DNA of 64,000 bases from assembly GCA_025060505.1 (NCBI GenBank), contig JANXBU010000008.1, positions 1-64,000 on the forward strand. Direction: 5' to 3'. Positions 2,252-7,096 of the stretch are shown piece after piece. The position numbers and the translations under genes are program-made. The stretch comes from Candidatus Calescibacterium sp. (GTDB lineage: Bacteria > Calescibacteriota > Calescibacteriia > Calescibacteriales > Calescibacteriaceae). The stretch's first letter is position 1, and each line of letters opens with the position of its first letter. The notes beneath the pieces were generated by a model. That model was not told where the DNA came from, did no database searches, and saw only the letters and a list, made by a program, of their open reading frames with translations.

Positions 2252-3010
2252 TTATGGGACTATCATTTCTTGTGGGTCAGATGGTACTCCTCCTACTCCA
2301 TTTTTATCCTCATAGATTATACGCCAGAATATTTTTCTTGAGAAAATCCTAAATGTTATCTGCTCCGGAAAAAATTTGTTATCTCTTACATATACATAAT
2401 ATATTGGATTGAAGAAGTTTTGATCCAAGGCAAACTCTAAAAGATAAACATCAACATCGTCTTTCTTTTCCCACAAAAAAAGAGGGATAATGACCTCCTG
2501 TCCGTTTCTCGGAAAGACCAAATTTATCTTAGGTTTCAGAACATACATACGAGATTCTGCCGGCAAATATCCATATCCTTTTCTTATTATCAGGCCTCTG
2601 TATTGCGCTTTCCCTTCTATGACTTCGAATTGAACATTATTCCTGTTTTTCAGAATAACCGAACAATTGTCGCAAGCGAATTCATCTTTCACCTGAACAT
2701 TACAATTTTCAGAATATACAAATATAAGACCTGTGTATTTTTCTATACTTACCGTAGGTTTCGATAACTTCAAATAAGAATCAAATACAACAACTGAACT
2801 CTGTGGGAACAACTTCAGGATACACTTACCAAAACTATTTGGGAAAGATACAATGAGCATTCCATCTTTTGTTGAAAAAGTTTTTTCGTTGTCGCTTTTG
2901 TTCTCTCCAATAGAATAAAATACCGTTGGATAAATTTTCTTCTGACAACCAAGAAAAAAAAACAAAGCGAAGATCAGACAAAGAAACATTCTATTTTTCA
3001 CAGCAAACAT
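2252..3010 (-). CDS. Lipoprotein with FecR-like and fibronectin-like regions
   Basis: A lipobox ending at Cys22 (FFLGC) marks it as an exported lipoprotein. The middle (about residues 45-150) reads like the FecR-type beta-sandwich found in surface proteins, with alternating hydrophobic strands such as 'GMLIVSF' and 'VQFEVIEGKAQYRG'. The C-terminal 90 residues look like an Fn3-type domain ('PLFLWEKKDDVDVYLLEFALDQNFF'). It lies 15 bases downstream of the giant ASH/OmpA gene on the same strand, so the two are very likely cotranscribed and may work together at the cell surface. I do not recognise a specific function, and the domain names are by pattern only. Confidence 0.65.
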   Translation of the reverse strand: MFAVKNRMFLCLIFALFFFLGCQKKIYPTVFYSIGENKSDNEKTFSTKDGMLIVSFPNSFGKCILKLFPQSSVVVFDSYLKLSKPTVSIEKYTGLIFVYSENCNVQVKDEFACDNCSVILKNRNNVQFEVIEGKAQYRGLIIRKGYGYLPAESRMYVLKPKINLVFPRNGQEVIIPLFLWEKKDDVDVYLLEFALDQNFFNPIYYVYVRDNKFFPEQITFRIFSRKIFWRIIYEDKNGVGGVPSDPQEMIVP

Positions 3011-3025
3011 AAATTTTCAGCAAAA

Positions 3026-6000
3026 CTACTTCATAAATATTTTTATCTCTGCTCTTCTGTTTACTGATTTTACTTGTGGGTCATCAGATTTTTTCAATGG
3101 AAACATAGAACTGTAACCAACTATCTTGATTGGTATCAGCAGTCCCTTCTCAAAGAGGTATTTTCTTACAGAGTTTGCTCTTGAATAAGATAGCTCCAAG
3201 TTCCAAGATTCAGACCCAATATCGTCTGTATGTCCTTCAATCAATATCTCTCTTATCTTATCTATGTTTTTACTTACAAAATCCGCCAACTCTTGCAACT
3301 GCCTTTGTGCCTGTGACGGTAAAGAAGCGGAATTCAAAGGAAAACCAGATATGGTTACCCTCACAACCACGTCGTCTTTTTCAGTATAAATATCGTATAA
3401 CTTCTGCCTGAATATTTGAGTTGCCCTTTCACGGATTATATCCTCCATATCTACTTCCTTAATTTCTTTCGCTAAGGTATGTTCCTGAGGAACGTTTTTC
3501 TTTATCTCCCCTGTTTTTCTCTCTTCATCGGATTTTTTCTGTTCAAACTTTTCCTGATCTAAGTTTTCTTTCGTTCTTACATCCCCAAATAAATTCTCTC
3601 TTGTCTCAACTTTTCCTTCTTCTACCGTATCAGCAACGGATTTATCATCATGACCTATCTGCTCGCCCTTTACAGCTTCCCGTGGATCAATCCTAAGCCA
3701 CACAAATTCTGGTTTTGAAATATATAAATCCCTTGAAAAACTACCAGATTGTATTCTAATATTCTTGCTACCCCTTAACACAACATAGTATGTTTGAATA
3801 TCAAACTCGCTTTCATCTATGCTAACTTTTATATCTCTTTCTATTGGTATCCCAGTTCTATCTGTTGAATAAGTTATCAGAGTTGGTTGAATTCTTTCCA
3901 CATTTATTTTTATATTCGGTTTGACATTTGAAACATATCCCTTTGAAATTTCAAATCCTTCACACATAACCTGCACCTCGTATGTTCCTCGTGGGAGTTC
4001 AAAACTAAAATTTCCATCCTTTGAGACTTTTGAAACCATAATCTCTTTTATCTGAACTATACAGCCCGATACTTTGTTTCCAAAAGCATCAAGTATAATT
4101 CCAGATGCTTGAAAATACTTTATAGATGGGTCCGCCTTTGGGTTTATGTTAGCTGTTGCCGAAAAAAATATTCTGAATTCAGATGATCCAAAACCTCCTA
4201 TAAGGCCTTTTGAAATACCAAACTTACCAATGAACTCATCTATGCTAAAACCAACAGATGTTGAAATCTCAGATGAAACGAATCCCTTTTTTATTGCCAA
4301 AGGAAAAAGTATGTAAGCATCATAACCGTTGAAGATTTTATTTGTGATCTGTATAGATGCTCCACCAGATAATAAACTTCTCAAAGGAATATCTCTTCCA
4401 CCATATATTGCCCCAATGTTTGAACTAAAATTATCTAACTTCATTCCACCTATTATGCCCAAAGAAAATGGAGAGCTATTGATATAGAATTTCTCTGATC
4501 CAACAGGAACACCAGCAAATAACTCTGAGAAAAAAGATATGTTCTGTGCTTCATATAGCATCATCTTTCCTCCAACAAAAAAATCAGATACACCAAGACC
4601 TCTGAGATCTCCACTGAAATAACCAATTGGTATAGAAGCGTACAAGACTGAATCATCTGAAATACTGTAAGATGCTGAAAACTCACTTATCAAAGAAGAT
4701 CTGATGAGATCGAAACTCTGAACTATTCTTTCTTCTTTATAAATGTTTCTCTGAAGCTGACCAAAAGAAATGTAAAACACATTTGAGAAAGAAACAGTCT
4801 CTTTTGTGAGAAAATTAGGTTCCCTTGTGAAGAACAATCTACCATCTGATTTTGGAGAAAAAATTATGTTTAAAGATAAAGCCTCATCTATGAAAACAGC
4901 CTGTATAAGAAAGAAAGAAAGCACGAGCTTTAACTTATATACGCGCACAAGCTTGAGCATGAATAAGATAAGACCAATAAATACTATAAAGGAAAAACTA
5001 AAAGATTTGCAACCCTTTCCTTCAAGTACAACATCCGGAGATTTTGATGTCGCAACCACTCTCACAGTTTTTTCTGGCATTTCAGGATCGTTTGAAAATA
5101 GATACAAATATGCTGAAAAATTCCCATATTTCCCCTGCGGTGAAAAAGATAACCTCAGCGGGAAGGTTTCACCGGGGGAAACTACTATATCATAAGCAGA
5201 AATTGTAAATACATCTGATTGGATATTTAATTTGACTTCAAGATCAGTATCACCTGTATTTTCAATTGGGAATATCTCATACTTTGATTCATCCGACCAA
5301 ATAGTTCCAAGATTGATTTCGTCTTTTACATTCATTCTTGGATATCCACCATACCCAGATATATTTATTTGAATAAACTTGGGTGATATATTCTGCTTGC
5401 TCTCAAAGGAGTAGCTTGAAGATTGTGGAAGAAGAGCAACAACTGTAATCTGCGCTTCATACCTTGTTAGATCATTCGGAGAAAATATTACAGGAAAACT
5501 TATCGTCTCCTGATATTTTAAAAGCAATGGAAAAGAATAACTCTGTTCATAAGAAAATCCATCTTTTTTTCCAAAGTATATATTTGAAATGACAAATGGG
5601 AATGGCTTCTCGTTTGATATAATAATATCTTTTCTCTTACGCCAGCCAACTCTAACATAGCCGAAATCTATTGATTTGGTCGCAGATATATCTGGAATAT
5701 AGGCTCTACCGAACAAGTTTATACGGAATCTTATTCTCTCTACATCATTTGTCTCAATCTCCAAGTATGATGAAAAATCTCCTTCAGCTTGCGGGCTGAA
5801 ATATAATGGAACCTCAACACTCTGTGCCGGTAAAAGAACCATCGGAAAATCAACATCTTGGTGAAGCGAAAAAGGACTGTTCGGAGGTATATATATATTC
5901 CTTATAACCAAATTCTCCGCTCCGACATTTGATATTTCTATGGTCCTAACCCTTGTCTCCCTCGGTATAAGGATTCCGAAATCAACAGTTATGCTCTCTG

Positions 6001-7096
6001 AAAACAGAGTGGGAAACGGATTTGAAACACCATAGCCTTCAAGATCAATAACCAAATAACCTATGTTCGTTATTAAAGTTACACTCCTTGAAAAATATCC
6101 GGCTGAATTTGGAGTAAAGGTAATCGGAAGAAAAAAATCAGACTGAACATATACTGGAAATTTTCCCAAATAAAATGGTGGATTATCAATTGCTCCAGAT
6201 ATAACCAGCGGATAATTTCCCTGATTTGATATCCTTGCAAATTTGGTATGAGATCTACCGACAAGAACTCCGGGAAAATTCAAATTTTTCTCAAAGCTAA
6301 CATTTGGATAAGCCCATACTCCAGAAACATAAAATGTTATATTCTGTTCATATCCGTCAATCAATAGTTCTAAGTCAAATACTTTTGAAAAGCTACCTGA
6401 CTTCTGACCTGAATAATTCAATGTAGTAGAACATCTTGTTTTATCTTTTGGTATAACATAACTAATCTCACATGAATAGCTACTTTTGATATAAATGGTA
6501 GAAAGTTCTGTGAAGTTTTGAACCTCAAAATCTATTTTCGGATTATCTTCTCTGAACACATATCCTAGATTCTGTTCATTCCTAACAACAATCTTATCTG
6601 AAGAAAATCCTTCTCCCTTTATGAAAACATTTTTCTTCTCAGACGTTGAATTATTATTAATCTCAACAACAGCAAAAAATACATCTTGAGATGTTGGAGT
6701 AAAGTTGAGTGTTATTTTATCTCCAACTATGTTCGTTTGCGGCAGAGAGAAAACATTCTGATATGGCTGAGATATTGATAGAGTATAATTTCCATTCGGT
6801 ACAGAAAACGAGCATGTTTTTGTCTGCCCAATATAAGATACCCCGCACGATACTTCCGTTGGTATAGCACAATAAGCATCATATACTTTAATCAGAACAG
6901 ACCAAATTATGAAGCAACAGAGAGACAAAAAGTAAGCCTTCTTACTTGGCTCACTTCTATATTGCGTGATAGATTCTTTTCTATATCGGAATTCATATTC
7001 TCTACGAAGTTTCAGATTTTTGATGGAGAATTCTGTTTTCAGATTTGTGGAAATTTTATTCTCTTTCAGATTTGCGAAATTTTTATTTATTTTCAT
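3026..7096 (-). CDS. Giant ASH-domain / beta-barrel / OmpA-domain envelope protein, possibly two proteins in one frame
   Basis: The 1356-residue ORF has two halves. Half one: a 52-residue N-terminal extension, a signal-like hydrophobic stretch (about 55-75), about four ASH/HYDIN-type immunoglobulin-like repeats (about 265-690, each with an '..DFG...G....R.I.I.N.G' opening), then 'GKGC' (Cys696), a hydrophobic helix and a basic cluster, as in MYXO-CTERM-type C-terminal anchors. Half two starts at an internal ATG (residue 713, base 4960) with its own perfect signal peptide, then a probable outer-membrane beta-barrel, a carboxypeptidase-regulatory-like domain ('GNFSFELPRGTYEVQVM'), a charged linker, and a C-terminal OmpA peptidoglycan-binding domain ('ILIEGHTDDIGS', 'SYSRANSVRKYL', 'NRRAEIKIFMK'). 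A FecR-like lipoprotein follows 15 bases downstream. See findings for the nested-start question. Confidence 0.8.
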   Translation of the reverse strand: MKINKNFANLKENKISTNLKTEFSIKNLKLRREYEFRYRKESITQYRSEPSKKAYFLSLCCFIIWSVLIKVYDAYCAIPTEVSCGVSYIGQTKTCSFSVPNGNYTLSISQPYQNVFSLPQTNIVGDKITLNFTPTSQDVFFAVVEINNNSTSEKKNVFIKGEGFSSDKIVVRNEQNLGYVFREDNPKIDFEVQNFTELSTIYIKSSYSCEISYVIPKDKTRCSTTLNYSGQKSGSFSKVFDLELLIDGYEQNITFYVSGVWAYPNVSFEKNLNFPGVLVGRSHTKFARISNQGNYPLVISGAIDNPPFYLGKFPVYVQSDFFLPITFTPNSAGYFSRSVTLITNIGYLVIDLEGYGVSNPFPTLFSESITVDFGILIPRETRVRTIEISNVGAENLVIRNIYIPPNSPFSLHQDVDFPMVLLPAQSVEVPLYFSPQAEGDFSSYLEIETNDVERIRFRINLFGRAYIPDISATKSIDFGYVRVGWRKRKDIIISNEKPFPFVISNIYFGKKDGFSYEQSYSFPLLLKYQETISFPVIFSPNDLTRYEAQITVVALLPQSSSYSFESKQNISPKFIQINISGYGGYPRMNVKDEINLGTIWSDESKYEIFPIENTGDTDLEVKLNIQSDVFTISAYDIVVSPGETFPLRLSFSPQGKYGNFSAYLYLFSNDPEMPEKTVRVVATSKSPDVVLEGKGCKSFSFSFIVFIGLILFMLKLVRVYKLKLVLSFFLIQAVFIDEALSLNIIFSPKSDGRLFFTREPNFLTKETVSFSNVFYISFGQLQRNIYKEERIVQSFDLIRSSLISEFSASYSISDDSVLYASIPIGYFSGDLRGLGVSDFFVGGKMMLYEAQNISFFSELFAGVPVGSEKFYINSSPFSLGIIGGMKLDNFSSNIGAIYGGRDIPLRSLLSGGASIQITNKIFNGYDAYILFPLAIKKGFVSSEISTSVGFSIDEFIGKFGISKGLIGGFGSSEFRIFFSATANINPKADPSIKYFQASGIILDAFGNKVSGCIVQIKEIMVSKVSKDGNFSFELPRGTYEVQVMCEGFEISKGYVSNVKPNIKINVERIQPTLITYSTDRTGIPIERDIKVSIDESEFDIQTYYVVLRGSKNIRIQSGSFSRDLYISKPEFVWLRIDPREAVKGEQIGHDDKSVADTVEEGKVETRENLFGDVRTKENLDQEKFEQKKSDEERKTGEIKKNVPQEHTLAKEIKEVDMEDIIRERATQIFRQKLYDIYTEKDDVVVRVTISGFPLNSASLPSQAQRQLQELADFVSKNIDKIREILIEGHTDDIGSESWNLELSYSRANSVRKYLFEKGLLIPIKIVGYSSMFPLKKSDDPQVKSVNRRAEIKIFMK

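Follow-up and report, generated by a model that had tools for sequence, protein, structure and literature searches.

One open reading frame, probably two envelope proteins: an internal cysteine tag runs into a second signal peptide in Candidatus Calescibacterium

Does a long open reading frame from Candidatus Calescibacterium encode one envelope protein or two, and if two, by what route is the second one produced? The frame lies on the minus strand at positions 3026-7096 of the window (the whole 64,000-nt stretch of DNA that was analysed), and no internal stop interrupts its 1356 codons. The features discussed below are listed here with their window coordinates.

3026..7096 (-), ORF with the order adhesin, internal cysteine tag, second signal peptide, beta-barrel, OmpA; 1356 residues in a single open frame
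6866..6943 (-), N-terminal signal peptide, about residues 52-77; read from the sequence
5057..6049 (-), residues 350-680, Ig-like domains of the ASH / choice-of-anchor D type; Pfam PF15780, PF22073, PF22544 and PF07610
5009..5020 (-), GKGC motif that marks the internal sorting tag, residues 693-696; GxGC invariant in 9/9 homologues
4958..4960 (-), in-frame ATG (M713) suggested as an internal start; no conservation
4955..5002 (-), tag helix (the first hydrophobic stretch), residues 699-714; sequence and alignment
4928..4954 (-), basic cluster KLVRVYKLK, residues 715-723; shared between the tag (as its cytoplasmic end) and signal peptide 2 (as its n-region)
4874..4927 (-), second signal peptide, residues 724-741; h-region followed by the predicted signal peptidase I site ALS/LN (the slash marks the cut)
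4112..4873 (-), TraB-like outer-membrane beta-barrel, residues 742-995; AlphaFold model, Foldseek and profile-profile match
3941..4105 (-), carboxypeptidase regulatory-like domain, residues 998-1052; PF13620, E 7.5e-7, just under the gathering score
3056..3343 (-), OmpA peptidoglycan-binding domain, residues 1252-1347; PF00691, E 3.5e-14, and Foldseek to Pal/OmpA
2252..3010 (-), putative lipoprotein (lipobox FLGC), downstream neighbour; conserved beside orthologue and paralogue

In the first half of the ORF, Ig-like domains of the ASH / choice-of-anchor D kind follow one another (NCBIfam choice_anch_D match, 1.1e-27). In the second half the beta-barrel is followed by the carboxypeptidase-regulatory-like domain, a long low-complexity linker (residues about 1135-1240) and the OmpA domain. 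At 6866-7096 (-) a leader of ~51 residues, which is unusual, stands ahead of the first signal peptide. Aligned orthologues have ordinary N-terminal signal peptides without this leader, and the true start of the ORF may lie downstream of the listed ATG.

Orthologues with 31-36% identity were found in four genomes of the same family (phylum Candidatus Calescibacteriota), one of them Candidatus Calescibacterium nevadense, and all four are single frames that run uninterrupted across the seam. Four of the five genomes, including the window's own, also encode a longer paralogue of 2232-2667 residues, in which these parts follow in the same order within one frame. The window ORF, the four orthologues and the four paralogues make up the set of nine homologues used below. 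A comparison of homologues for a stop codon between the two halves, as suggested in the preliminary description of this locus, revealed none, and every homologue in the lineage is fused.

At the junction, residues 693-742 read GKGC-KSFSFSFIVFIGLILFML-KLVRVYKLK-LVLSFFLIQAVFIDEALS/LN without a stop codon. The second hydrophobic stretch occupies residues 724-736, and the cleavage-site context (...DEALS/LN) falls at residues 739-742. The segment has the basic n-region, the hydrophobic h-region and the small residues at -3 and -1 that make up a signal peptide. When the homologues were aligned by eye, the -1 position of the predicted signal peptidase site was small in 9/9 and the -3 position in 7/9, the latter being imperfect in the paralogues L025 and L026. 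GxGC is kept in 9/9 Calescibacteriota homologues at the junction and K721 is invariant across the five orthologues, which argues that the junction is more than chance. The preliminary description was right to see a MYXO-CTERM-like tripartite tail at GKGC (GxGC, helix and basic cluster are all present), two proteins in one frame with no stop between them (the frame is continuous in all lineage homologues), and a basic cluster of the anchor that is also the n-region of the next signal peptide.

The same tripartite tag, followed by a stop codon, is found at the C-termini of L042-L047, L049-L051 and L058 (L041 excepted) in the same genomes; tag proteins were sought by profile search only and their number is a lower bound. 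Two of them, L044 (G000:C60) and L049 (G000:C38:85147-85215), belong to the window genome itself and end in GCQC or GGGC, a helix, basic residues and a stop. Both are standalone members of the tag family, as yet without a name, to which the internal tag of ORF 3026-7096 belongs. Each of the five genomes encodes exactly one PF02517 (CPBP) protein, and in the four genomes scanned the best matches of this sole CPBP protein are the myxosortase models. Its scores against Mrt_core (NF040914) are 97.0 (own genome, CPBP gene at G000:C38:28716-29012), 86.9, 97.2 and 92.7 bits, all below the cut-off of 100, and the CPBP catalytic motifs EExxxR, FxxxH and HxxxN/B can be read in the sequence as PEEIFFRGF, FMLIHLP and HAMSN. 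A rhombosortase was considered as the processing enzyme and rejected, the single rhomboid scoring 18.6 vs a cut-off of 84. The T2SS secretin GspD scores above cut-off in the relative G001, and two secretins are encoded in each of the five genomes, the window's included. Passages of Guo, Haft and Wall (2025, PMC11980579) report that MYXO-CTERM proteins use the T2SS.

The MYXO-CTERM model itself (TIGR03901) found no match in the five Calescibacteriota genomes and none when applied to the window tag alone. The window tag has the tripartite MYXO-CTERM layout of Cys motif, helix and basic residues; it does not have the C-terminal location, 660 residues following it in frame. In common with the MYXO-CTERM/myxosortase system are the invariant Cys tag with its helix and basic end, a CPBP glutamic protease that is closest to Mrt proteins, and GspD in the family. 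The differences are the lack of a TIGR03901 match, a protease that falls just below the Mrt_core cut-off, and the internal position of the tag. The C-terminal tags, the single myxosortase-like CPBP protein and GspD or other secretins, in the absence of a model match, make this lineage look built to work like MYXO-CTERM, yet by the curated model it stands outside that family.

For the barrel half, the AlphaFold model has a mean pLDDT of 69 (moderate), with the barrel mostly at about 80-90. In Foldseek the barrel resembles FapF and a COG4313 channel (TM-score to target 0.6-0.7) and the C-terminal end resembles Pal/OmpA. The barrel fold is common to these outer-membrane channels and ORF 3026-7096, with no sequence relation between them shown, and FapF and COG4313 channels are not known to carry an OmpA domain. 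Homology was detected with the TraB-like barrel superfamily (hhalign 99.3%, E 1.6e-20, 243 columns). Against the TraB model NF033763 (cut-off 700 bits) the whole window protein reaches 38.8 bits, through its OmpA part only, and the barrel alone gives no match; four fused members of the other-phylum set described below do match NF033763 in the barrel region. A sequence search for solved relatives of the barrel returned none that was credible.

We searched other groups with a profile of tag plus barrel and found the fused layout in other phyla, with different adhesins and tags: L090 and L103 (GRGC, GHGC), L097 (GIGC), L092 and L100 (GFGC), and L093. The internal tag of L090 is MYXO-CTERM (20.1 vs a cut-off of 20), and that of L093 is CFI-box-CTERM (95.5 bits vs a cut-off of 40), located behind choice-of-anchor D domains. 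In L093 (G269:C23, 5243-9622, minus strand) this CFI-box-CTERM lies mid-protein; after it come a second signal peptide and a TraB-like barrel, but no OmpA domain. One tag-rich set from another phylum is probably Myxococcota, to go by its MYXO-CTERM and TraB matches among others, and 166 of its 195 genomes have a match. The 150 matches listed for this set divide into 108 fused frames, from 70 genomes, and 42 standalone barrels; there are no intermediates between the two forms among them. An A.A site follows signal peptide 2 in 37/39 fused homologues of this set. One family (L144, L146, genomes G481-G488) has giant adhesins, encoded by fused frames about 4950-5220 residues long that show this tag/barrel seam.

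The two halves also occur as separate genes. In the pair L101, a 1102-residue ORF ends in GGCGC-helix-RRRTVKKH-stop, and 33 bp after the stop lies the ATG of a signal peptide-barrel-OmpA gene. In the pair L162, a 1771-residue ORF with a MYXO-CTERM-like tail abuts a barrel gene. There are two genes here and one frame there, and the seam falls between tag and signal peptide; this is our main reason for reading the fused form as a two-protein precursor. Most of the standalone barrels checked have no tagged gene directly upstream, which suggests that the barrel also works, or is recruited, alone.

We consider it likely that ORF 3026-7096 is one translation unit and the precursor of two partner envelope proteins, an adhesin and a barrel-OmpA protein. 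The cell would probably make one chain and then cut it in two; a single chain processed by two proteases is the most likely route to the second protein, and one that the preliminary description overlooked. Several findings come together in this reading: the single frame is conserved, the tag is invariant, a second signal peptide follows it, the barrel is homologous to TraB-like barrels, each genome has one myxosortase-like enzyme, the tag also occurs standalone, GspD is present in the family, and split versions are found in other groups. From these we infer the following steps. The N-terminal signal peptide would direct export of the ASH-domain adhesin until the helix of the GxGC tag stops transfer, so that the basic cluster remains on the cytoplasmic side. 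Sec export of the barrel-OmpA half would then restart at the second hydrophobic segment, which differs from an ordinary signal peptide only in its position. A signal peptidase I cut after residue 741 would free the TraB-like barrel for insertion into the outer membrane, with its OmpA domain sitting on the peptidoglycan. On the other side of the loop the single myxosortase-like CPBP protease would cut at the GxGC tag, probably once its Cys has been lipidated, and the lipid-anchored adhesin may reach the surface via the T2SS. The two cuts would leave a short two-helix hairpin as remnant, and a single chain would have yielded an adhesin and its outer-membrane partner in a 1:1 ratio, as a counterpart of the myxobacterial TraA/TraB gene pair. 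The fusion of the genes would cost nothing in topology, because the one basic cluster serves both signals, ending the first on its cytoplasmic side and forming the n-region of the other. Several points speak against a polyprotein: a hairpin precursor with two cuts is more demanding mechanistically than two genes, the -3 residue is imperfect in L025 and L026, the enzyme scores just below its family cut-off, the tag falls outside the MYXO-CTERM model, and a long leader precedes the first signal peptide.

Alternatively, the chain may stay uncut at the tag, either as a polytopic protein whose inner-membrane hairpin and outer-membrane barrel bridge both membranes, or with a cut by signal peptidase only. 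The single frame kept by all lineage homologues and the long linker before the OmpA domain (residues about 1135-1240) fit such a protein. However, some homologues are encoded by two genes, with the break exactly at the seam, the tag cysteine is invariant though an uncleaved hairpin has no need of it, and a clear A.A site stands after signal peptide 2 in 37/39 fused homologues of the other phylum. These data make an uncut chain unlikely, and they weigh less on the variant with the signal-peptidase cut only.

The preliminary description had proposed instead that the second protein is made by initiation at ATG713, yielding a separate barrel protein alone or beside the fusion. The codon is indeed at base 4960, in frame and just ahead of the basic cluster, and its product would be 644 residues long. 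A Shine-Dalgarno (SD) motif is found at only 6/50 window ORF starts, so its absence at ATG713 is weak evidence against a start there. The homologues, however, do not keep the codon: an ATG in the n-region of signal peptide 2 is absent from 8/8 of them (four orthologues, four paralogues), the orthologue L005 and the paralogues L023 and L026 lack ATG, GTG and TTG altogether in this region, and the remaining frames have scattered TTG or GTG only. In the 39 fused homologues of the other phylum, Met occurs at background frequency in the n-region (0.0295 per residue, against 0.0275 for the flanking helices), and an SD-like motif precedes a start-like codon at one junction only. The hexamer TTATCT does stand 5 bases before ATG713, as had been pointed out, but it is not a start signal shared with other genes: it occurs within 25 bases upstream of 2/50 window ORF starts vs about 1.1 expected, and for that reason carries no weight. 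A leaderless -10 box before ATG713 was rejected as well, since TANNNT shows no significant enrichment near starts (21/50 vs 17.3 in shuffles, a value reached by 148/1000 shuffles). With n-region codons unconserved, Met at background and TTATCT unenriched, we rejected the internal start as a conserved mechanism and regard initiation at ATG713 as the source of a barrel protein as very unlikely; a start at 713 may occur in this one species but is not a conserved device. As for a recent frame fusion, assembly error or lost stop in one genome, the window does come from a fragmented draft (115 contigs, 86% completeness), but eight homologues (from four further genomes and a second locus here) are fused alike in single frames with GxGC invariant in all nine, and the chance of such an artefact is negligible.

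A precursor cut at an internal tag has been suggested before. Passages of Guo, Haft and Wall (2025, PMC11980579) describe MXAN_5598 of Myxococcus xanthus as having an internal MYXO-CTERM, a barrel and OmpA, suggest that it arose by gene fusion and is processed at the internal tag, compare it with TraA plus TraB, and regard internal MYXO-CTERM motifs as rare; the second signal peptide is not discussed in those passages. M. xanthus vesicle proteomics lists MXAN_5598 too, under the name 'OmpA domain protein'. As described in those passages, it has in common with ORF 3026-7096 a large adhesin region, an internal tripartite Cys tag, a barrel and OmpA in one ORF, and the window ORF is of the same kind, in another phylum, with another (ASH-domain) adhesin and a tag outside the curated MYXO-CTERM model. 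In the TraA/TraB pair (PMC3325183), too, the gene for a Cys-tagged surface protein stands immediately ahead of the gene for a barrel-OmpA partner, and the window ORF's barrel is homologous to TraB-like barrels. The pair differs in that TraA and TraB are two ORFs with a four-base overlap and that TraA has a PA14-like and Cys-rich region in place of ASH domains; the kin recognition of TraA/TraB outer-membrane exchange is not implied for ORF 3026-7096. Our literature searches found no description of the arrangement beyond MXAN_5598, nor of its breadth or of the tag/signal-peptide seam as a rule.

More generally, we lean towards the view that several phyla make adhesin/barrel pairs as polyproteins, with a cysteine tag and a signal peptide back to back round one cytoplasmic basic loop and an intramembrane CPBP protease and signal peptidase I cutting on either side to give a 1:1 pair, and that in Calescibacteriota this route is fed by a cysteine-tag/myxosortase-like system of their own, so far undescribed. 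If so, cysteine-tag sorting reaches outside Myxococcota, and internal tags, which the literature describes as rare, are in fact frequent. The order of tag Cys, helix, basic loop and signal peptide would then serve as a sequence rule for finding surface adhesins that are annotated only by their OmpA domain, and provide a clean way to test adhesin and barrel as a stoichiometric pair.

Two minor observations concern the surroundings of the ORF. The putative lipoprotein at 2252-3010 has no Pfam or NCBIfam matches; similar ORFs adjoin L004, L006, L007 and the paralogues L024-L026, and it is likely a third partner of the adhesin and the barrel. Finally, the low count of SD-like motifs in the window (6 of 50 ORF starts) suggests that translation in this lineage may depend little on Shine-Dalgarno pairing.
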